Assembly (NCBI RefSeq): GCF_030269685.1
Contig: NZ_BSTT01000002.1
Location: 682,001 to 746,000, forward strand
From: Actinomycetospora sp. NBRC 106378
GTDB taxonomy: Bacteria; Actinomycetota; Actinomycetes; Mycobacteriales; Pseudonocardiaceae
DNA: 64,000 nucleotides
Reading direction: 5' to 3'
The position numbers were made by a program, and so were the translations under genes. The notes beneath the pieces are model-generated. The model was not told the DNA's origin. It did not search any database and saw only the letters and a program-made list of their open reading frames with translations. This document shows positions 18,342 to 38,550 of the stretch, one piece after another. The stretch's first letter is position 1, and the number at the start of each line of letters is the position of its first letter.

Positions 18342-18776
18342 TCAGGCTCCCGTGCGCGCCGTCAGCCCGGCGGCCTCGATGCCGGCGACGACGGCCTCCT
18401 CGTCGGCGGTCGAGGCGTCCCCCGAGGCGCCGGCGGCCCCGATGACCTCGCCGTCCGCGTCGGTGATGAACACCCCGCCCGGCACCGAGAACACCTTCCC
18501 GCCCGCGAGCGCGGCGACCGAGGTGAAGAACTCGGGGGAGTCGGACGCGCGCTGGGCGATGGCGCGGCTGTCCATCATGAGGCCGATGACGCCGTGCGCC
18601 TTCGCGATCGCGACGTCGGGGCGCAGGAAGCCCGACCCGTCGGCGCGACCGAGCGCGACGAGGTGCCCGCCGGTGTCCAGGACCGCCACGGTCAGAGGCT
18701 TGTAGCCCGCCGATTCGCCGTGCTTCAACGCCTCGGCGACGATGGTGCGGGCGTGCTCGTAGGTCAGGGAGCTCAT
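18342..18776 (-). CDS. GlcG/HbpS-family haem-binding-like protein
   Basis: 144 residues matching the GlcG/HbpS fold: LTVAVLDTGGHLVALGRADG near the start, then PDVAIAKAHG and GGVFITDADGEVIGAAGASG. In Streptomyces reticuli HbpS binds haem and modulates a two-component system, whereas many homologues in catabolic operons have no known role. No signal peptide is visible, so this copy is probably cytoplasmic. It is divergent from the PP2C phosphatase gene over 72 bases. Confidence 0.88.
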   Translation of the reverse strand: MSSLTYEHARTIVAEALKHGESAGYKPLTVAVLDTGGHLVALGRADGSGFLRPDVAIAKAHGVIGLMMDSRAIAQRASDSPEFFTSVAALAGGKVFSVPGGVFITDADGEVIGAAGASGDASTADEEAVVAGIEAAGLTARTGA

Positions 18777-18848: not shown

Positions 18849-20516
18849 GTGGAGCGCATGGACTCGACGATGCCGGCGGGGGCTCCCTCGCCGACACCGC
18901 CGAGGGGGCTGCGGAGCCTGCACGCACGGATGTTGTCCGGGATGTCCGAGGCGGTCGTGGTCACCGGGCCCTCCCACCCGGGTGGCGAGGAGATCGTGCA
19001 CGCCGCCAACCCGGCGGCCGGGCGGCTGCTCCCGGGCCTCGTCGTCGGGACGCCCGTGGCGGACGCCGGGCACGACGCCTTGACCGACGCGGTCGTCCGG
19101 GCCCGGCCGGGTTTCGAGACCGAGGTCGCCGGCCGCGTCCTGGCCGCCCGGGCGGTCCGGCTGGACGACGACGGGGCCGTCGTCGACGCCCTCACCTGCT
19201 GGTACCTGCGGGACGTCACCGAGGAACGTCGCGGGTCGGCGTCGCTGGTGCGGGCGCAGGCGCGCGCCCAGTTCCTCGCGGAGGCCGGGCGCGCCCTGCA
19301 CGGCGTGCTCCACCTCGACCGCACGCTGCGCACCGCGGCGTCGCTGGCCGCGGGCACCCTCGCGCCCACCGTGCTCGTGCTGCTCGCCGACGGCTCGGAC
19401 GTCGTCCGTTGGGCGCGCGCCGACCGCGACGGGGCGCGCCCGCACACCGGTGAGATGACCCGCGCCGACCTGCGTGCCACCCCGCGCCTGCACGAGGCGC
19501 TCACCGGCCGGGCCCCGGTCGACCCGTGGGTCGGCGTCGAGCTCGCCGAGCTGCCGGTGTGGCACGAGCCCCCGACCGACCGGGTCGTGGCCGTCCCGGT
19601 GCCCGGCACCGTCGTCGCGGGGGTGCTCGTCCTGGTCGGCCCCGACCTCGACGACGACGTGCTGCCGCTCGGCGAGGAGTACGCGGTCCGCGTCGGCACC
19701 GCGCTGTCGGCCGCGGCGCTCTACCGCGAGCAGGCCCACCTCGGCCACGTGCTCCAGGCGAGCCTCGAGCCGCCGCCCCTGCCCGACGAGACCTCCGGCG
19801 GCCTGCTCGTGGGCAGCGCCTACCGGCCCGCGCGGGAGAGCCTGCGGGTGGGCGGCGACTTCTATGAGGTCCTGCCGCGCACCGCCGCCGGCCGCACCCC
19901 GTTCCTGCTGGGCGACGTCTGCGGCAAGGGCATCGAGGCCGCCGTGCTCTCCGGGCGCGTCCGGCAGTCGCTGCACGCCCTGCGCCTCGTCGAGCAGGAC
20001 CCGGCGACCCTGCTGCGCCTGCTCAACGTCGCCCTGCTCGACGCCGCCGACCTCGACGCCCCCGGCGCCGCGGTCCCGATGCCGCGCTTCGCCACCATGG
20101 TGCTCGGCGACGCGGAGTCCCTTCCCGACGGCGGGTCGCGGCTGCGGCTCGCGACGGGCGGACACCCGCCGCCCTACGTGCTGCACGCCGACGGTCGGGT
20201 CGAGGAGGTCGACGTCGCCGGGTCGCTGGTCGGCGCCCTGCGCGACGCCGAGATCGGCCACACCGAGATCGACCTCGCCCCCGGCGAGACCTGCCTGCTC
20301 TACAGCGACGGCGTCACCGAGGCGCGCGGCGGTCCGGGCGGCCGCGAGTTCTACGGCGAGGAGCGTCTCGAGGCCGCGCTCGCCGGCTGCGTCGGGGCGC
20401 CCCCGCAGGTGGTCTGCGACCGGGTGCTGCAGCTGCTGTCCGACTGGCTGGGCGGTCGCGACCACGACGACGTGGCCCTGCTCGCCCTGCAGGCTCCCCG
20501 CGGGAGGCACGTGTGA
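18849..20516 (+). CDS. PAS/GAF-containing PP2C (SpoIIE/RsbU-type) serine phosphatase
   Basis: 555 residues. A PAS-like N-terminus (about residues 25-130, ending WYLRDVTEERRG) leads to a GAF-like region (about 145-295) and a PP2C/SpoIIE phosphatase (about 310-550) with metal-binding motifs GGDFYEVL, LGDVCGKGIEAAV, LLYSDGVTEA and DHDDVALLAL. Such phosphatases dephosphorylate STAS anti-anti-sigma factors in partner-switching cascades. GTG at 18849 has GGGAG five bases upstream. It overlaps the next gene by 4 bases (GTGA), and a STAS protein follows that, so the substrate is probably encoded in the same operon. Confidence 0.93.
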   Translation: MERMDSTMPAGAPSPTPPRGLRSLHARMLSGMSEAVVVTGPSHPGGEEIVHAANPAAGRLLPGLVVGTPVADAGHDALTDAVVRARPGFETEVAGRVLAARAVRLDDDGAVVDALTCWYLRDVTEERRGSASLVRAQARAQFLAEAGRALHGVLHLDRTLRTAASLAAGTLAPTVLVLLADGSDVVRWARADRDGARPHTGEMTRADLRATPRLHEALTGRAPVDPWVGVELAELPVWHEPPTDRVVAVPVPGTVVAGVLVLVGPDLDDDVLPLGEEYAVRVGTALSAAALYREQAHLGHVLQASLEPPPLPDETSGGLLVGSAYRPARESLRVGGDFYEVLPRTAAGRTPFLLGDVCGKGIEAAVLSGRVRQSLHALRLVEQDPATLLRLLNVALLDAADLDAPGAAVPMPRFATMVLGDAESLPDGGSRLRLATGGHPPPYVLHADGRVEEVDVAGSLVGALRDAEIGHTEIDLAPGETCLLYSDGVTEARGGPGGREFYGEERLEAALAGCVGAPPQVVCDRVLQLLSDWLGGRDHDDVALLALQAPRGRHV

Positions 20517-21544
20517 CCGCCCCGACGACGTCGACGACCGGACGGCGCGCGGACTACCTCGACCGGCTGGGCGCCTCCGACGAGGAGGGCGCGATCGCGG
20601 TGGCGCTCGCTGCGCTGGACGCCGGCCTCGACGTGGAGACCGTGCTGCTCGACGTCGTCGCCGAGGCCCAGCGCGAGGTGGGGGAGCGGTGGGCGGCCGG
20701 TTCCTGGACGGTGGTCCAGGAGCACATCGCCACCCACATCTCCGAGCGGGTCGTCTCCGCCGTCGCCCGCCACCGCCCGGCCGACCCGCCGACCGGGATC
20801 GGCCGCATCGCGGTGGCCTGCCTCGACGGCGAGTGGCACGCGCTGCCCGCCCGGCTGCTCGCCGAGGTGCTCGCCCGGCACGGCTGGGAGGTCACGTTCC
20901 TCGGCTCCAGCGTCCCCGCCGCCCAGCTCGCGGTGCACCTGCACGAGACCGGGCCCGACGTCGTCGCGGTCTCCAGTTCGCTGCCCTCCCGCCTCCCGGC
21001 GGCGCGCCGCATGGTCGAGGCCTGCCGCGCGTCCGGTATCCCGATCCTCGCCGGCGGCCCCGCGTTCGGCCCGCAGGGCGAGTGGGCCGGCGCCGTCGGG
21101 GCCGACGGGTGGGCGCCCGACGCCCGGGCCGCGGCGGCCCTGCTCGAGAACACCCTGCCGCGGCGTGACGACGGCCGCGTCGACGACGTCTCCCGCGAGG
21201 AGCAGGCACTGCTCCAGACCCGCCGTCCGGAACTGGTCGCCGGACTGGCCGCGCGGGTGCGGGCCGGCCATGGCACCGACCCGCTCGCCGACGACCAGCT
21301 GGCCGACGACCTGGGCCACCTCGTCGACTTCCTCGCCGCCGCCGTCTACGTCGACGATCCCGGTCTGCTGGCCCGCTTCCTGCGCTGGGTCGGCACCGTC
21401 GCCGTCCCGGGCGGCCTCGCCCGCGAGGAGCTGCGGGCGGTCGTCGAGGACCTCGTCGAGCGTCTGGGCGACTCGCCCCGCACCGTCGCGCTGCTCCGGT
21501 CCGAGCCCGTGCAGGAGGCGTGTTCCCCGGCGGCAGCGGCGTGA
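20513..21544 (+). CDS. B12-binding sensor protein with photoreceptor signature Wx9EH
   Basis: 343 residues. The N-terminal helical cap domain (about 12-90) contains W60, nine residues, then E70-H71, the Wx9EH motif that marks light-sensing adenosylcobalamin domains of the CarH/LitR kind. The following Rossmann B12-binding domain has DGEWHALP, placing H109 as lower axial ligand in the ExH context of CarH, and FLGSSVPAAQLAVHL further on. There is no MerR DNA-binding domain. A C-terminal helical part (about 235-343) is unassigned. Being between a PP2C phosphatase and a STAS protein, with overlaps on both sides, it is probably the input sensor of that pathway. Confidence 0.85.
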   Translation: MTAPTTSTTGRRADYLDRLGASDEEGAIAVALAALDAGLDVETVLLDVVAEAQREVGERWAAGSWTVVQEHIATHISERVVSAVARHRPADPPTGIGRIAVACLDGEWHALPARLLAEVLARHGWEVTFLGSSVPAAQLAVHLHETGPDVVAVSSSLPSRLPAARRMVEACRASGIPILAGGPAFGPQGEWAGAVGADGWAPDARAAAALLENTLPRRDDGRVDDVSREEQALLQTRRPELVAGLAARVRAGHGTDPLADDQLADDLGHLVDFLAAAVYVDDPGLLARFLRWVGTVAVPGGLAREELRAVVEDLVERLGDSPRTVALLRSEPVQEACSPAAAA

Positions 21545-21882
21545 TCGCGCCGGAGCCGGACTTCGCGGTCCGCATCGAGAAGGAGCAGGTCCCCGACGTC
21601 GGGCCCCGGGTGCTCGTCGTCGTCACCGGGGACGTCGACTACACGCACTTCGGCGAGCTCGAGACGGCGCTCGAGCACGAGATCGGCCGGTCGACGGGGC
21701 CGCTCGACCTCGTTGTCGACCTCACCGCCGTGCCCTACTGCGACTCCTGCGGGATGCGCGTCCTGCTCGGCGCCTCGCAGCAGGTCGCGGCCGGCGGCGG
21801 CGTCTTCGGGCTGCGTGGGGTCCACGGCCAGGTCGCCCGTGCCCTGAAGCTCACCGGTCTGGACCGGGTGCTCGGCGCCTGA
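21541..21882 (+). CDS. STAS-domain anti-sigma factor antagonist
   Basis: 113 residues covering a single STAS domain: RVLVVVTGDVDYTHFGELE at the N-terminal strands and LTAVPYCDSCGMRVLLGA at the regulatory helix. DSCG aligns with DSSG of SpoIIAA/RsbV, so the phosphorylatable serine after Asp is kept while the next serine is cysteine. The GTG start overlaps the TGA of the B12 protein gene (GTGA). It should bind an RsbW-like kinase encoded elsewhere, as none is in the window. Confidence 0.9.
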   Translation: MIAPEPDFAVRIEKEQVPDVGPRVLVVVTGDVDYTHFGELETALEHEIGRSTGPLDLVVDLTAVPYCDSCGMRVLLGASQQVAAGGGVFGLRGVHGQVARALKLTGLDRVLGA

Positions 21883-21928: not shown

Positions 21929-22744
21929 ATGACCTCCCTGCCCGAGTCCCTGGAGACCCTCGCCGTCGACCGGCCCGCCGAGCACGTCGCCCGGGTCTCG
22001 CTGGTGGCGCGCGCGATGTCGCCGACGTTCTTCGCCGAGCTGCCGCAGGTCATGGCGGCCCTGGACGCCGACCCCGGGACGCGCGCGATCGTGGTCACCG
22101 GGGTGGAGGGACGGTTCTCCTACGGTCTCGACCTGCAGGCCGCCGCCGGGTCGCTCGGCGGGGTGCTGGGCGACCCGAGCGCGAAGAACCGGGAGTGGTT
22201 CCTGCGCCACGTCCGGGAGCTGCAGGGGTCGATCACCTCGGTGGCCGACTGCCGGACGCCGACGGTGGCCGCGGTCCAGGGCTGGTGCGTGGGCGGCGGG
22301 GTCGACCTCGCCACGGCCTGCGACATCCGCCTGGCCGGGGCCGACGCACTGTTCTCGGTCCGCGAGGTGCGCATGGCGATGGTGGCCGACATCGGGTCGC
22401 TGCAGCGCCTCGTCGGCATCGTCGGCGACGGGTTCCTCCGCCAGCTCGCCCTCACCGGCGAGGACGTCCCCGCCGCCGAGGCCGAGCGCATCGGCCTGGT
22501 CAACCGCACGTACGCCTCGGAGGACGAGCTGCAGGCCGCGGCCCTCGAGCTCGCCGGGCGCATCGCCGCCAACTCCCCGCTCGTCACCCGCGGCATCAAG
22601 GACGTCCTCGACGCCGAGCGCGCCCCCCGGGTCGAGGCCGGCCTGCGCTACGTGGCGGCCTGGAACGCGGCCTTCCTCCCCAGCGCCGACCTGCAGGAGG
22701 CGTTCACGGCGTTCGCCGAGAAGCGGGCGCCGCGGTTCGACTGA
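21929..22744 (+). CDS. Enoyl-CoA hydratase/isomerase (crotonase), dienoyl-CoA isomerase-like
   Basis: 271 residues. FSYGLDLQA and VQGWCVGGGVDLATACDIRLA form the CoA-binding and oxyanion segments. SVREVRMAMVADIGSLQRL follows the pattern of delta3,5-delta2,4-dienoyl-CoA isomerase (ECH1), where the Glu and the later Asp are catalytic, and both are present. The role is probably in beta-oxidation of unsaturated acyl-CoA. It ends about 20 bases before a hairpin shared with the converging histidine kinase gene. Confidence 0.9.
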   Translation: MTSLPESLETLAVDRPAEHVARVSLVARAMSPTFFAELPQVMAALDADPGTRAIVVTGVEGRFSYGLDLQAAAGSLGGVLGDPSAKNREWFLRHVRELQGSITSVADCRTPTVAAVQGWCVGGGVDLATACDIRLAGADALFSVREVRMAMVADIGSLQRLVGIVGDGFLRQLALTGEDVPAAEAERIGLVNRTYASEDELQAAALELAGRIAANSPLVTRGIKDVLDAERAPRVEAGLRYVAAWNAAFLPSADLQEAFTAFAEKRAPRFD

Positions 22745-22762: not shown

Positions 22763-22813
22763 GAGCGAGCGGCACTCTCGCAGCATCCATGTGCGCGAAA
22801 GTGCCGTTCGTTC
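22763..22813. terminator. Bidirectional hairpin terminator, copy A2 of the recurring element
   Basis: GAGCGAGCGGCACTCTCGC pairs with GCGAAAGTGCCGTTCGTTC (mostly complementary with a few mismatches) around a 13-base loop. It sits exactly between the converging crotonase and histidine kinase genes and reaches the kinase stop codon. The core CGGCACT/AGTGCCG is shared with the hairpins at 18280 and 33492. Confidence 0.75.
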
Positions 22814-23978
22814 AGGACGGGGCGACCCCCGGCACCCGGACGACGGTCCGGGTGCCCGGCGCCGTGGTGTCCAGCGTGAAGGTCCCGCCGACGCCCTCGA
22901 CGCGGGCCCGCGTCGAGGCCAGCCCGATGTGCCCGTCGGCCAGCCGGGCCGCGAGGACCGACCGGTCGACGCCCACTCCGTCGTCCGACACCTCCAGCGT
23001 CCGGCCGCCGCCGTCGTCGTGGACCGCCACCCGCACGTGCCCGGCCCGCGCGTGCTTCGCGACGTTCGTCAGCAGCTCGCGGGCGACGCCGAAGAGCAGT
23101 CGGTCGTGCGGGCCGGCGGGGAGCAGCCCGCCGTCGACCGTCACCGCGAACCCGGCCTGGGCGGCCGCCCGCTCCGCGACCCGGCGCACCGCGACCACCA
23201 GCCCCGCCTCGTCGAGCACGTAGGGGTGCAGCGCGAACACGACCTCGCGGATCTCGCGGATGCCGGTGCGCAGCGCCTCGTCGGCGGCCTCGGCGCCGTC
23301 CAGCTCGTCGAGCTCCTGGCCGGCGACGAGGAGGGTCTGCAGGGCGTGGTCGTGCAGGTCCTCGGCGAGCCGCCGCCGTTCGCGGGCCTCGGCGTCGAGC
23401 ACCTGGGCGGTGAGCGCGTCGGCGTCGGCGAGCAGCGCGCGGATGCGGGTCGCGCGCCGGGCGAGCACGACCGAGAGCAGGAACGTCGCGACCGCCACGA
23501 GCGTGAGCACCGCGGCCTCGGCGGCGAGGGTCGCGACCGTGATGTCGGGCCGCTCGATCGCGGCGGTGAGGACGAACGACGCGAGTGTGGCCACCCCGAC
23601 CCCGGCCGAGAGCGCCGGCCGGTACCGGAACGCCGCCATCACGGGGATCACGACGTAGGCCAGCGTCGGCAGGGTCCCGCCCCCGCCGGCGAGGAGGGAG
23701 AGGACGGTGATGGCGACGAGGTCGGACGTGGTCGCGATGAGCCCGGTCGTCGGCGCGACCGGCCGGCGGGTCACCTTCGCGAACCAGCCGACCGCGAACA
23801 GGCCGTAGGCCGCGAGCACCACCCAGAAGCCGACGCCCTCGACCCGGGTCTGGTCGAGCACGCCCGCGAGCGCCAGCAGCGCGACCAGCCCGAAGCGCAT
23901 CAGGCTCGTCGTCCGGGACGCCTCGGCCTGGAACTGCGCGAGCGCCCGCTCGGCCGGGGTGCTCACTCCCGCCGTCAC
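22812..23978 (-). CDS. Sensor histidine kinase (NarL-type, HisKA_3)
   Basis: 388 residues. Five or six membrane helices (about residues 25-165) precede a dimerisation helix with ERRRLAEDLHDHALQTLL, whose first histidine is the phosphorylation site of the HisKA_3 class. The ATPase has ELLTNVAKHA (N box), DDGVGVD (G1) and GHIGLASTRARVEGVGG (G2). GTG at 23978 overlaps the TGA of the response regulator gene (GTGA). No large extracellular domain is visible, so it may sense within the membrane. Confidence 0.93.
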   Translation of the reverse strand: MTAGVSTPAERALAQFQAEASRTTSLMRFGLVALLALAGVLDQTRVEGVGFWVVLAAYGLFAVGWFAKVTRRPVAPTTGLIATTSDLVAITVLSLLAGGGGTLPTLAYVVIPVMAAFRYRPALSAGVGVATLASFVLTAAIERPDITVATLAAEAAVLTLVAVATFLLSVVLARRATRIRALLADADALTAQVLDAEARERRRLAEDLHDHALQTLLVAGQELDELDGAEAADEALRTGIREIREVVFALHPYVLDEAGLVVAVRRVAERAAAQAGFAVTVDGGLLPAGPHDRLLFGVARELLTNVAKHARAGHVRVAVHDDGGGRTLEVSDDGVGVDRSVLAARLADGHIGLASTRARVEGVGGTFTLDTTAPGTRTVVRVPGVAPS

Positions 23979-24622
23979 TCCAGCAGCCCGCGCCGCATCG
24001 CCTCGGCCACCGCGGCCGCGCGCTCGGTGACCTCCAGCTTCTCGTACATCCGCTGCACGTGGGTCTTGACGGTGCTCGGCGCGACGTAGAGCTGCTTCGC
24101 GATCGCCGGCGTCGTCAGACCCTGCGCCATCAGCCGCAGGATCTCGGTCTCGCGCTCGGACAGGGCGGGTCCGCGGTCGGCCCGCCGGTGCCGGATCTCC
24201 CCGGCGAGGCCCGCCGCGAGGTCCGCCGGCAGCACGGTGCCGCCGTCGGCCGCCGTCCGCACCGCCTCCACCAGTTCCCGACGACGGGTCTCCTTCGGCA
24301 GGTAGCCCGCCGCGCCCTCCTCGATCGCGCCGTACACGAGCGTCGCGTCGGTGAACGCCGAGAGCACCACGATGCGGGTGGCGAGCCCGTCGCGGGCCGC
24401 GCGCCGGACGATCTCGGTGCCGTCGAGCCCGGGCATGCGGTGGTCCACGAGGGCGACGTCGGGGCGGTGCTCGACGATCGCCGCCAGCGCCGCCTCGCCG
24501 TCGTCGGCCTCCCCGACGACGTCGATCCAGCCGCTCCCGGTCAGCGCCCGGACGACGCCGTCGCGGTACATCTCGTGGTCGTCGGCGACGACCACGCGGA
24601 TCCTCTCCCGGGAGTCACGCAC
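23975..24622 (-). CDS. NarL/FixJ-family response regulator
   Basis: 215 residues. Receiver domain residues 9-125 with D14-D15, phospho-acceptor D60 (VALVDHRMPG), a conserved Ser and LPKE lysine. The C-terminal LuxR helix-turn-helix is LSERETEILRLMAQGLTTPAIAKQL. It is the partner of the kinase directly downstream. It overlaps the upstream alpha/beta hydrolase gene by 8 bases, so hydrolase, regulator and kinase form one operon. Confidence 0.94.
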   Translation of the reverse strand: MRDSRERIRVVVADDHEMYRDGVVRALTGSGWIDVVGEADDGEAALAAIVEHRPDVALVDHRMPGLDGTEIVRRAARDGLATRIVVLSAFTDATLVYGAIEEGAAGYLPKETRRRELVEAVRTAADGGTVLPADLAAGLAGEIRHRRADRGPALSERETEILRLMAQGLTTPAIAKQLYVAPSTVKTHVQRMYEKLEVTERAAAVAEAMRRGLLE

Positions 24623-35163: not shown

Positions 35164-38100
35164 GTGCTGCGCCTCGTCGCCGCGCTCGCGGCCCTGGTCG
35201 TCGGGATCGCGTCCGTCGTCGTGGCCCTCGCGGTGCCCGGCGCGCCGGTGGAGTCGTCGACGTCGACGGTGAGCTGGCCGCGCGCGGGAGCGGCGCCCGA
35301 GCCGACGACGCTGTTCCTCGTCCCGTACCGGCCGGTCTCGCTCGAGGTGACCGTCCCGTGCGGGGCCGTGCAGGCGGCGCGGGCCCGGACCGCGGACACG
35401 ACGGTGTTCGCGACCACGGTGGGCGCCCCCGCCGACGCCCTCGCCGTGCGGACGCGGGCCGCCACCGACGACGGCTCCGCCGCCCTCCAGGTGATCTCGA
35501 GCGGGCGCGTGGTGCCGGTCGAGGTCCCGGCGGACAACTGCGGGCTGCGGCTCGTCGCGGACGCCTCCGGCCTGACCGTGACCGTCGGCGACCGCGTCGC
35601 GGCCACCGTCCCCGGGGCCCCCGTCCCGGAGGTCTTCGCCGCCACGACCGACCTCACCGGCCGCGACGCCGACGGGCTCGCCCTCACGGCCCGGACCCCG
35701 GCGTGGTTCGACAACGCGCCCGCCCCGGAGAAGTCGGCCCTCCTCACGGCTCAGCCCCAGCTCGCCCTCGTCGGCCTGCTGCTCGTCCTGCTCGCCGGCG
35801 TCCTCGCCCCGCCGCGCCGCGGGGACCGGACCCTCCGCGAGTTCGCCTCGGTCCGCGGTCTCGCGATCGCGCGGACCCGCTGGCGCCGGGCCCGACGACG
35901 GGTCCGCGCGGCCGTCCTGCGCACGGTCGCGGCTCCGTGGGTGCTCGCCCGGTTCGCGGTGGACGCCGTCGTCGCCGTCGGCCTGGCCTGGTGGTCGATC
36001 GTGGGCCCGCTGACCGACGACGACGGCTTCGCCGCGGTGATCGCCCGCGAGATCCGCGACGGCGACGTCGGCAACTACTACCGCTGGTTCAACGCCTCCG
36101 AGGTCCCGTTCGCCACCAACCAGCGCCTCCTCGCGGGCTTCCTCGACGACGGGATCGGTCCGCTCGCGCTCCGGACGCCGAGCGTGCTGGCCGGGCTGCT
36201 GACCTGGGTGGTGCTGACCCGCGGCGTGCTGCGGCCCGCGCTCGGCCCGGCCGGTCGGAGCGTGGCGGTCCGTGCGCTCGCCGCGGTGGCGTTCGCGGTG
36301 TGGTGGCTGCCCTACGACCTCGGGACGCGCCCGGAGCCCGTCGTCGCGCTCGGGACGGTCGTCGTGACCGCCCTGGTGCTCCGCGCGGTCCGCCCGGCCA
36401 CCGGATACGTCGTCGGGCACCCCGTCGTCCTGCTCGCGGTCGCCGCCCTCGCCGCGGCGCTCACGATCACCGTCGCGCCCTCCGGGGTCATGACGGCGGC
36501 GCCCTTCCTGCTCTGCCTGCCCCGGGTGCTGCGGGCCCTGACCGCCGGCGAGCGGGAGGACGGCCGGGTCGCCCGGGTGACGCAGGCGGTCCTGCCGGCG
36601 GCGCACGTCGCGGTGGTCGTGGGTCTCGCCGCGGTCGCCCTCGTCGTCGTGTTCACCGACCAGTCGTGGCACGGGTTCGGCGTCGCGACCGAGATCCACC
36701 GCCAGATCGGCCCGAACCAGCCCTGGTACGCGGAGTGGCTGCGCTACGGCTACCTCTTCGGGGAGGACTCCTGGGGCGCGGCGGCCAAGCGGGTGCCGGT
36801 GGTCGTCGGGCTGGTGCTGGCGGGCACCGGGCTGGTGGTGCTGGCGCGCGGCTCCGGGGCGGAGCGGGGGCGGTCCTGCGACGGCGTGCTCGGCCGCGAG
36901 TCCGTCCTGCTCCTCGGTCTGCTGCCGGCGGGGTTCGGCCTGCTCGCGGTGACGCCCTCGAAGTGGTCGCACCACTACGGCGCGCTCGCCGGGTTCGGGG
37001 CGATCGGGATCGTGGCCACGGCCGTCGCGCTGTGGCGGGCGAGCCGGCACCGCGACCGGGTCGTCGCGGCGACCGCCGGTGTCGCGGCGCTGCTGCTCGC
37101 CCTCGGCGGCGCCTTCGCCTTCGCCGGCCCGAACGCCTGGTGGGCCTACTCCGGGTTCGGCATGCCGGGGTCGACGGGCCCGCAGCACCCGTTCGACGCG
37201 GTCGCCCTCTGGTTCCTGGTCGCCGTCGTGGCCGCCGTGGTGGCGGTCGTCGTCGTGGTGCGGTGGCAGCGGGCCCCCGACGACGGGCCGCCGCTGGTCG
37301 CCGCCGCGGTGGCCGCGGCCCCGCTGGTCCCCGCCGCGACCGCCGTCGTCGTCGTGGTGGTCTCGGTCCTGCTCCTCGGCTCGTCCTTCGCCACGGCCGC
37401 CGACCGCGGGGACCGGTACTCGCTCGCGGCGCAGAACCGGGCCGAGCTCGCCGGGACGCCGGGAGCGTGCGGGCTGCAGGACCGCGTCGAGGTGCTGCAG
37501 ACCGTTCCTGCCGGGCCGCTCACCCCGGTCCGGGGGTCGACGGCGACGATGTCCGGCTTCGTCGCGGACGGCGGGGCCGTCGACCCGCCCCCGCTGCGAC
37601 CGGACCAGACGGACGGGACCGACGGCACGCCCGACACCCGCGACGGCCGCTTCACGTGGGGGAGCCGCGCCGACGGGGACGGGTCGGTCGGGGAGATGAC
37701 CACCGGCTGGTTCGGGCTCACCCGGCCCACCGGGGACGAGGAGCTCGCCGTCGGCGTCGCCGGCCGCACCTCCGACGGCGCCTCGCTGACCTGGGAGTTC
37801 GGGCGGGGTGACCGGGTGGTCGGGGAACGGCCCGTCGTCGAGGACCCGGAACCCGACCGCGGGTACCGGGGCTACGCGGGCACCGCCGAGCAGGAGCGGC
37901 TCCAGGACGCCGGGGTCCGGCTCGACCGCTGGCGCACCGTCACCGTCCCGGCCGCCGAGGTCCCGGCAGGCGCCGACCGTGTGCGGCTGCGCGCGACCGA
38001 CGACCGCACCGACACGGGCGGCTGGATCGCCTTCACCGGCCCGCGGGTCGTCGCACCGGAGCCGCTCGACCGCTGGCTCGCCGACCGCGGACCGGTGCTC

Positions 38101-38550
38101 GTCGACTGGGCGATCGCGTTCGCGTGGCCGTGCGCGGGAGCGCTGCCGCGGGTCGCGGGCGGGGTCGCGCAGACCCCCGGCGCGATCATCACCACGCCGA
38201 CGGCACCCTTCGACCCGGTGCCCGGCGAGCGCACCACCAACCCCAGCCCGCCGGGCGACATCGTCCCGGAGCGCTGGACGGGCGGCACCGGCGGACTGTT
38301 CCTCGGGCAGGACTCGGGCGGCAGCTTCGCCGGGCTGGAGGCCGTCGGATCCCTGCGCGAGCTCGACACCCGCCTGCCCGACGAGCCCGGCCGGCGGTGG
38401 GGGCGTGTCCTCGTGCCGGACCTCGACGACCTGGGGACCGACCGGTACGACGTCGCGACGAGCACCCGGACCGTCCCGGGCACCGGGGGCGACCCGGCCC
38501 CGACGGTGGACCCGCAGGTGCGCTCACAGGGCGAAGCCACCTACCGGTAG
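35164..38550 (+). CDS. Arabinosyltransferase (EmbA/B/C family)
   Basis: About 1128 residues. An N-terminal membrane helix and luminal domain (VSWPRAG, LFLVPYRPVSLEVTVPC) precede the GT-C core with LTDDDGFAAVIAREI, the Emb catalytic acidic motif, then NYYRWFNASEVPF and further helices, and a C-terminal carbohydrate-binding region with WTGGTGGLFLGQDSGGSF. It adds arabinofuranose from decaprenylphosphoryl-arabinose to cell-wall arabinan and is the ethambutol target family. GTG at 35164 lacks a ribosome site. A CTG at 35059, seven bases after GGGAG, would add 35 residues and a cytoplasmic N-terminus. Its end overlaps the converging lyase gene by 10 bases. Confidence 0.94.
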   Translation: MLRLVAALAALVVGIASVVVALAVPGAPVESSTSTVSWPRAGAAPEPTTLFLVPYRPVSLEVTVPCGAVQAARARTADTTVFATTVGAPADALAVRTRAATDDGSAALQVISSGRVVPVEVPADNCGLRLVADASGLTVTVGDRVAATVPGAPVPEVFAATTDLTGRDADGLALTARTPAWFDNAPAPEKSALLTAQPQLALVGLLLVLLAGVLAPPRRGDRTLREFASVRGLAIARTRWRRARRRVRAAVLRTVAAPWVLARFAVDAVVAVGLAWWSIVGPLTDDDGFAAVIAREIRDGDVGNYYRWFNASEVPFATNQRLLAGFLDDGIGPLALRTPSVLAGLLTWVVLTRGVLRPALGPAGRSVAVRALAAVAFAVWWLPYDLGTRPEPVVALGTVVVTALVLRAVRPATGYVVGHPVVLLAVAALAAALTITVAPSGVMTAAPFLLCLPRVLRALTAGEREDGRVARVTQAVLPAAHVAVVVGLAAVALVVVFTDQSWHGFGVATEIHRQIGPNQPWYAEWLRYGYLFGEDSWGAAAKRVPVVVGLVLAGTGLVVLARGSGAERGRSCDGVLGRESVLLLGLLPAGFGLLAVTPSKWSHHYGALAGFGAIGIVATAVALWRASRHRDRVVAATAGVAALLLALGGAFAFAGPNAWWAYSGFGMPGSTGPQHPFDAVALWFLVAVVAAVVAVVVVVRWQRAPDDGPPLVAAAVAAAPLVPAATAVVVVVVSVLLLGSSFATAADRGDRYSLAAQNRAELAGTPGACGLQDRVEVLQTVPAGPLTPVRGSTATMSGFVADGGAVDPPPLRPDQTDGTDGTPDTRDGRFTWGSRADGDGSVGEMTTGWFGLTRPTGDEELAVGVAGRTSDGASLTWEFGRGDRVVGERPVVEDPEPDRGYRGYAGTAEQERLQDAGVRLDRWRTVTVPAAEVPAGADRVRLRATDDRTDTGGWIAFTGPRVVAPEPLDRWLADRGPVLVDWAIAFAWPCAGALPRVAGGVAQTPGAIITTPTAPFDPVPGERTTNPSPPGDIVPERWTGGTGGLFLGQDSGGSFAGLEAVGSLRELDTRLPDEPGRRWGRVLVPDLDDLGTDRYDVATSTRTVPGTGGDPAPTVDPQVRSQGEATYR

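Follow-up and report, generated by a model that had tools for sequence, protein, structure and literature searches.

What signal enters a partner-switching cascade when a B12-binding protein is encoded between its phosphatase and its antagonist is the question raised by a three-gene unit of Actinomycetospora sp. NBRC 106378, which lies at positions 18849-21882 of the 64,000-nucleotide stretch analyzed here and referred to as the window (assembly GCF_030269685.1, contig NZ_BSTT01000002.1, positions 682,001 to 746,000 of the forward strand). The initial annotation had described the unit as a PP2C phosphatase, a B12-binding protein and a STAS protein, and Pfam domains were indeed found in all three products. 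Here, we report that the middle protein is, by sequence and predicted fold, a photocobilin; the gene anatomy, family membership, conserved residues and conserved gene unit are established below from sequence comparison and structural models. Homology to a proven photoreceptor and the wide conservation of the gene unit strongly support a light input through the phosphatase/STAS pair, and we assign a probability of about 0.75 to the reading in which the stand-alone photocobilin is the light gate of the co-translated phosphatase, feeding a STAS/sigma-factor switch. The initial proposal of a B12 photoreceptor acting through a phosphatase and a STAS protein is sustained by these two lines of evidence, and its CarH-like identity and its newness are not.

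Photocobilins bind adenosylcobalamin (AdoCbl) and biliverdin, and with both in place, B12 responds to green light and biliverdin mediates the response to red (PMC10979010). The light state of the stand-alone photocobilin SasPcob is a monomer, and AbDPcob, in which a photocobilin is fused to a diguanylate cyclase, is light-activated (PMC10979010). A stand-alone photocobilin also alters the activity of a separate diguanylate cyclase, in a light-dependent manner in the case of SasPcob, and biliverdin reverses the sign of the SasPcob effect (PMC10979010). Section 9 of the same paper, published in 2024, names STAS, SpoIIE and PP2C proteins as potential interaction partners of SasPcob and suggests from this a role in the stress response; the "distinct route" through protein partners that the initial annotation regarded as new had thus already been proposed. 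Within the accessible literature on B12 photoreceptors with STAS, SpoIIE, anti-sigma factors or partner switching, no other paper appears to test this pathway. Relative to these sources, what is new is how widely the PP2C link extends, that the residues are intact within the unit, that versions with a kinase exist, that biliverdin-competent photocobilins are split from those lacking the biliverdin-contacting Asp, and that many carriers have no strong heme oxygenase match. SigB is known to receive blue light via a flavin-binding LOV-STAS protein in the stressosome and red light via RsbP; to our knowledge, no B12 photoreceptor takes part in the SigB light pathways of Bacillus or Listeria. Blue and red light activate SigB in both genera (PMC3019169), so that a light input to a partner-switching stress response is not new in itself.

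The unit and the codons of interest, all on the forward strand, are as follows.

18849-20516, forward strand: PAS-GAF-PPM serine phosphatase of the SpoIIE/RsbU-type PP2C class (Pfam PF07228, E 4.7e-44; possible alternative start ATG 18858)
20513-21544, forward strand: stand-alone photocobilin, with a four-helix bundle, a Rossmann B12 domain and a predicted C-terminal biliverdin-type globin, and no output domain (B12-binding PF02310, E 1.1e-18; B12-binding_2 PF02607, E 7.3e-13)
20690-20725, forward strand: codons for W60-x9-E70-H71, the predicted adenosine pocket and dimer interface (SasPcob W61, E71 and H72)
20837-20839, forward strand: codon for H109, the predicted lower axial cobalt ligand (SasPcob H108)
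21308-21310, forward strand: codon for D266, equivalent of SasPcob D270, which contacts biliverdin rings A-C
21386-21388, forward strand: codon for W292, equivalent of SasPcob W296, beside biliverdin ring D
21541-21882 (alternative start 21520), forward strand: STAS anti-sigma-factor antagonist with a DSCG phosphorylation-site motif (PF01740, E 1.7e-15; TIGR00377 ant_ant_sig, 65.7 bits against a cut-off of 53.45)

Four bases, 20513-20516, are common to the phosphatase and photocobilin genes, and the photocobilin and STAS genes overlap by 4 bases if the latter starts at GTG 21541 and by 25 if it starts at the in-frame GTG 21520; the claim of four-base overlaps on both sides accordingly holds on the phosphatase side and, for STAS, only with the downstream start. 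The third product combines a STAS domain with a phosphorylatable serine in a DSxG motif, as expected of an antagonist, and D[ST]xG is found in 62 of 65 STAS sequences, the window protein among them.

The photocobilin assignment of the middle protein rests on agreement along its length. A phmmer search of solved structures matched the SasPcob structures 8J2X and 8J2W at E 9e-75 and 1e-74 over residues 12-324, with 46.8% identity to SasPcob (144 of 308 aligned residues), and AbPcob (8J2Y) at E 7e-37. The AlphaFold model (predicted local distance difference test score, pLDDT, 90.6) superimposes on 8J2W with template modeling (TM) scores of 0.86/0.89 and on 8J2Y with 0.84/0.88, and matches CarH over the B12 part only. 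Because the photocobilins are matched over the full length by both methods, the C-terminal third, from about residue 225, is predicted to be a biliverdin-type globin domain; photoglobins have been placed among the bilin-binding globins with kinship to phycobiliproteins (PMC10151467). This domain had been overlooked in the initial annotation, which read the protein as a CarH domain minus its DNA-binding part. W60-x9-E70-H71 and H109 (within GEWHALP) are located where it placed them, and no MerR or other DNA-binding Pfam match was found at E up to 1; CarH identity itself is poorly supported, with 40.8 bits for NF052513 against a cut-off of 400. The closest named relatives belong to Actinomycetospora species (85-90% identity). 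No second close photocobilin was found in the genome, where the only other match was a 1198-residue frame (E 2e-5) that, judging by its length, is likely MetH.

In the alignment, SasPcob W61, E71, H72, H108, D270 and W296 correspond to W60, E70, H71, H109, D266 and W292, and both motifs of light-dependent B12 proteins, W-x9/10-EH and E/DxH, are present (W60, E70 and H71; E107-W108-H109). AbPcob has His in the D270 column, as reported in PMC10979010, which serves as a check on the alignment. Conservation across 147 aligned photocobilin pieces amounts to 144 for W60, 145 for E70, 145 for H71 and 144 for H109, a pattern that is not due to chance. Two of the three named biliverdin contacts, D266 and W292, are also kept.

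SasPcob of Saccharothrix syringae (8J2W, 8J2X; PMC10979010) thus shares with the window protein its domain order, the four B12 residues, the Asp/Trp pair and the lack of an output domain. The two loci nearest SasPcob in the survey tree (L070, L072) carry the PP2C-photocobilin-STAS order followed by a kinase gene, which the window unit lacks. AbDPcob (8J2Y) has the same photosensory bundle and published light control of its attached enzyme, and differs in its fused output, in the His replacing the biliverdin Asp and in its identity of only 32%. CarH (5C8D and relatives) shares the B12 core and the Wx9EH and ExH motifs, but unlike the window protein carries a MerR DNA-binding domain and lacks the globin.

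The phosphatase has the architecture expected of the RsbU/SpoIIE-type PPM class, namely, a PPM fold with its acidic residues behind sensory domains and a linker helix. The only Pfam domain found in it is SpoIIE; the PAS domain named initially has no Pfam match at E up to 1 and survives as a PAS-like region in the secondary structure of the AlphaFold model (pLDDT 91.1), which reads PAS-like 35-122, helix 124-151, GAF-like 156-270, helix 271-305 and PPM 320-548. The best folds in the PDB are the PP2C domain of SiaA and the RsbU-RsbW domains of Rv1364c; the best 50 rows of the fold search are PPM phosphatases, which leave the PAS and GAF parts unassigned, and a few phosphatase homologues have Pfam PAS (PF13188) or GAF (PF01590) matches. 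D337, D356, D487, D540 and D541, which presumably include the metal-binding residues, are invariant in 42 aligned sequences.

The reach of the unit was assessed in 143 loci using sequence profiles for PP2C, STAS and RsbW-like kinases. These comprise 3 named Actinomycetospora loci (a fourth row, a 31% match from Caulobacteraceae, was excluded) and 140 regions of 3.2-12.1 kb, representing matches at E up to 1e-25 outside Micromonospora (the window's own excluded) and a Micromonospora subset of 17 first copies, out of 52 photocobilin-bearing genomes, and 12 listed second copies; two tandem photocobilin pairs and one split gene share a region each. Only the best 5-7 candidates per genome were scored, so that photocobilin copy numbers are lower bounds. 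In 116 of the 143 loci, the gene immediately preceding the photocobilin gene, in the same orientation, encodes a PP2C; with the nearest in-frame start, 93 of these 116 pairs overlap by exactly 4 bases. The scanned catalytic motifs are present in 105-111 of the 116 upstream phosphatases. The surveyed loci hold 141 PP2C open reading frames (ORFs) in 1.54 Mb, and 12 of the 25 that are not upstream are the fixed second PP2C of the Micromonospora second copies; at the density of these 25, at most about 2 cases would fall in the upstream slot by chance. For comparison, the window genome has 9 SpoIIE-type matches in 6.3 Mb. STAS lies directly downstream in 64 loci, 63 with the upstream PP2C and one frameshifted locus (L101, from one genome of the survey, with the photocobilin gene split in two frames), and the photocobilin and STAS genes overlap by 4 bases in 41 of the 64. 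Two additional loci have two tandem photocobilins and then STAS, and a co-directional STAS-kinase (HATPase)-PP2C-photocobilin order was found in 11 loci.

Loss of W60, E70 and H71 in homologues of the unit had been named in advance as grounds for abandoning the light role; in the 63 PP2C-photocobilin-STAS units, these residues, along with H109 and W292, are kept in 63/63, and D266 in 59/63. Of the 53 remaining loci with a linked PP2C, 52 retain the four core residues and 21 retain D266; in the 27 loci counted without PP2C, some of them frameshifted or ended by the contig, the corresponding numbers are 24 and 17. The association of D266 with STAS gives a Fisher p of 1.8e-10, which ignores kinship: on a quick-method tree, 5 changes suffice for the 30 PP2C-only rows without the Asp, so that the pattern reflects few events and the p-value is not a count of independent ones. 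All 12 two-copy Micromonospora genomes (L153/L164 and 11 further pairs) have one D266 copy with STAS and one Asp-less copy without STAS directly downstream, each copy with its own PP2C; the Asp-less second copies have a further PP2C about 1.8-2 kb downstream. By analogy with AbPcob, the Asp-less copies may bind biliverdin more weakly; their sensitivity to green light should persist, given that W292 and the B12 residues are retained.

In the window unit, chromophore binding, the light response, the docking site, the sign of control and the sigma-factor target are predicted as follows. In the dark, AdoCbl would be bound with H109 below the cobalt and W60, E70 and H71 around the adenosyl group of a head-to-tail dimer, and biliverdin would sit in the C-terminal globin via D266 and W292. 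Green light (through B12) or red light (through biliverdin) would cleave the Co-C bond, leaving the dimer looser and its contacts altered. The immediate partner would be the co-translated PAS-GAF-PPM phosphatase, the likeliest route being docking on its sensory or linker part, by analogy with RsbT on RsbU and RsbQ on RsbP; the substrate would be the co-translated STAS protein, whose dephosphorylated form would then bind a kinase/anti-sigma factor from another locus and so free a SigB/F-type sigma factor. With respect to the sign, activation by light is slightly favoured. In the Bacillus subtilis RsbQ-RsbP and RsbT-RsbU pairs, a separate partner likewise activates a phosphatase of sensor-linker-PPM build whose substrate is a phosphorylated STAS antagonist, with RsbQ acting on the PAS domain of RsbP (PMC3183031) and RsbT on the linker of RsbU (PMC12143880); unlike the photocobilin, neither RsbQ, an alpha/beta hydrolase, nor RsbT is a photoreceptor, and no sequence kinship is claimed. 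In 36 of the 116 PP2C-linked loci, the partner phosphatase aligns with that of the window only past residue 120, suggesting that the PAS part may be dispensable and that the GAF/helix/PPM part might be the more general docking site.

Several observations weigh against a photocobilin-gated phosphatase. Co-transcription does not establish contact, and in none of the 143 loci are two domains of the unit joined in one ORF. No photocobilin-PP2C fusion was found, either among these ORFs or, as a B12 domain, among the best 120 of 1662 PP2C homologues; the one fusion encountered, of a photocobilin and STAS in a predicted 437-residue ORF (P0017, from a clustered protein database in which a PP2C, P0139, is recorded with a contig of equal length), would favour a functional link but stands as one sequence that could have arisen through faulty assembly. 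The third biliverdin contact, SasPcob H137, a putative salt-bridge partner, aligns with Q138 of the window protein. Neither a kinase/anti-sigma factor nor a sigma factor is encoded within the three-gene unit. Finally, heme oxygenase and photocobilin are not found together more often than expected, which speaks against a simple biliverdin story: across 397 genomes, a heme oxygenase (E up to 1e-10) was present in 34 of 110 with a photocobilin and 86 of 287 without, and 14 of 17 Micromonospora with D266 (L148-L163, L176) have no heme oxygenase match of this strength. Under a lenient search, 8 of these 14 remained without any match, and the other 6 gave weak ones (E 3e-7 to 3e-3) that exceed the low Pfam cut-off, in three cases only together with neighbours in the frame; these 6 could be divergent heme oxygenases. 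No heme oxygenase was found inside the surveyed loci at E up to 1e-5 using the window-genome query. PF10615, which we take to be linked to heme degradation and scanned as an alternative marker, gave mixed matches in 10 of 18 genomes.

In favour of the photocobilin reading, the window genome itself encodes one heme oxygenase (E 6e-46) and a Cob_adeno_trans match (PF01923). Within its family, heme oxygenase was found in 21 of 30 genomes with a photocobilin and 27 of 49 without (p 0.24). Four SigBFG sigma factors exceed the cut-off, and on contig C20, one SigBFG gene follows STAS and HATPase genes and another follows an HATPase gene, making these two candidate targets of the cascade. Kinases near related units were compared with 25 of the 33 HATPase_c_2 places of the genome, with best identities of 31-45%; 8 of 10 queries pointed to the same gene (L183, on C20, about 3 kb from a sigma gene), which is suggestive of the cognate kinase and not decisive.

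Among the alternatives to light gating of the phosphatase, the one that fares best, and that we nonetheless consider unlikely, is a cofactor or metabolite sensor, in which AdoCbl occupancy, or biliverdin from heme breakdown, sets the phosphatase. The apo, AdoCbl and biliverdin states of photocobilins affect an enzyme differently in vitro (PMC10979010), soil bacteria experience a variable B12 supply, and a heme-related, HbpS-like gene lies divergent to the unit, albeit within the survey in Actinomycetospora only; against this, almost no variation is seen at W60 and E70/H71, the residues that hold the light-sensitive dimer interface and the photolabile adenosyl group, and SasPcob is photoactive with the same residues (PMC10979010). 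We find it quite improbable that the photocobilin acts instead on the STAS or STAS-kinase step: the STAS fusion P0017 and the frequent adjacency of STAS would fit such a role, but PP2C is by far the more constant neighbour, and in 53 of the loci that pair PP2C with a photocobilin, the next gene is not a STAS gene (two of them have a second photocobilin, then STAS). An ordinary corrinoid carrier of the MtbC/MtgC type, accidentally co-transcribed, can be dismissed as exceedingly improbable, because despite weak corrinoid-model matches (MtgC, 35.1 bits against a cut-off of 370) and relatives labelled "methanogenic corrinoid protein MtbC1" in some databases, the scores lie far under the cut-off, for which reason a corrinoid methyltransferase partner was likewise rejected, the CarH-type motif and globin domain are present, the fold matches photocobilins over the full length, and the unit holds no methyltransferase gene.

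The neighbouring genes complete the description of the locus. The HbpS/GlcG-like gene (18342-18776, reverse strand; PF03928, E 5e-26) is divergent to the phosphatase gene; it was considered as a part of the unit and rejected, given that relatives (phmmer E up to 1e-5) occur near the photocobilin in 4/4 Actinomycetospora loci and 0/139 others, the distribution of a genus-level neighbour. An enoyl-CoA hydratase-like gene (21929-22744, forward strand; PF00378) starts 46 bases past the STAS stop codon on the same strand and may share the transcript of the unit. Facing the unit, at 22812-24622 on the reverse strand, are genes for a sensor histidine kinase and a LuxR-type response regulator that overlap by 4 bases. 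Farther away, an EmbC-like arabinosyltransferase is encoded at 35164-38550 (forward strand; PF04602, E 6e-75), as expected in an arabinan-walled actinomycete.

More tentatively, and with the odds against the full scheme, photocobilin and PP2C might form a widespread two-protein, light-gated phosphatase of actinobacteria, with biliverdin as a tunable second input. The two-copy Micromonospora would then pair a biliverdin-competent channel with a B12-only channel, each with its own phosphatase, so that responses to green and red light could be compared, and the window gene would be a single-channel, biliverdin-competent version. The two channels could have opposite signs, because biliverdin reverses the effect of SasPcob on an enzyme in vitro. 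If light gating of the phosphatase is correct, many actinobacteria would have a stress sigma factor gated by a serine phosphatase that is itself set by a B12/biliverdin sensor, and this would account for the coupling of general stress responses to green and red light in non-photosynthetic soil bacteria. With sensor, enzyme and substrate encoded in three coupled genes, the unit is a compact system that would suit a direct test of the photocobilin-SpoIIE/STAS proposal.

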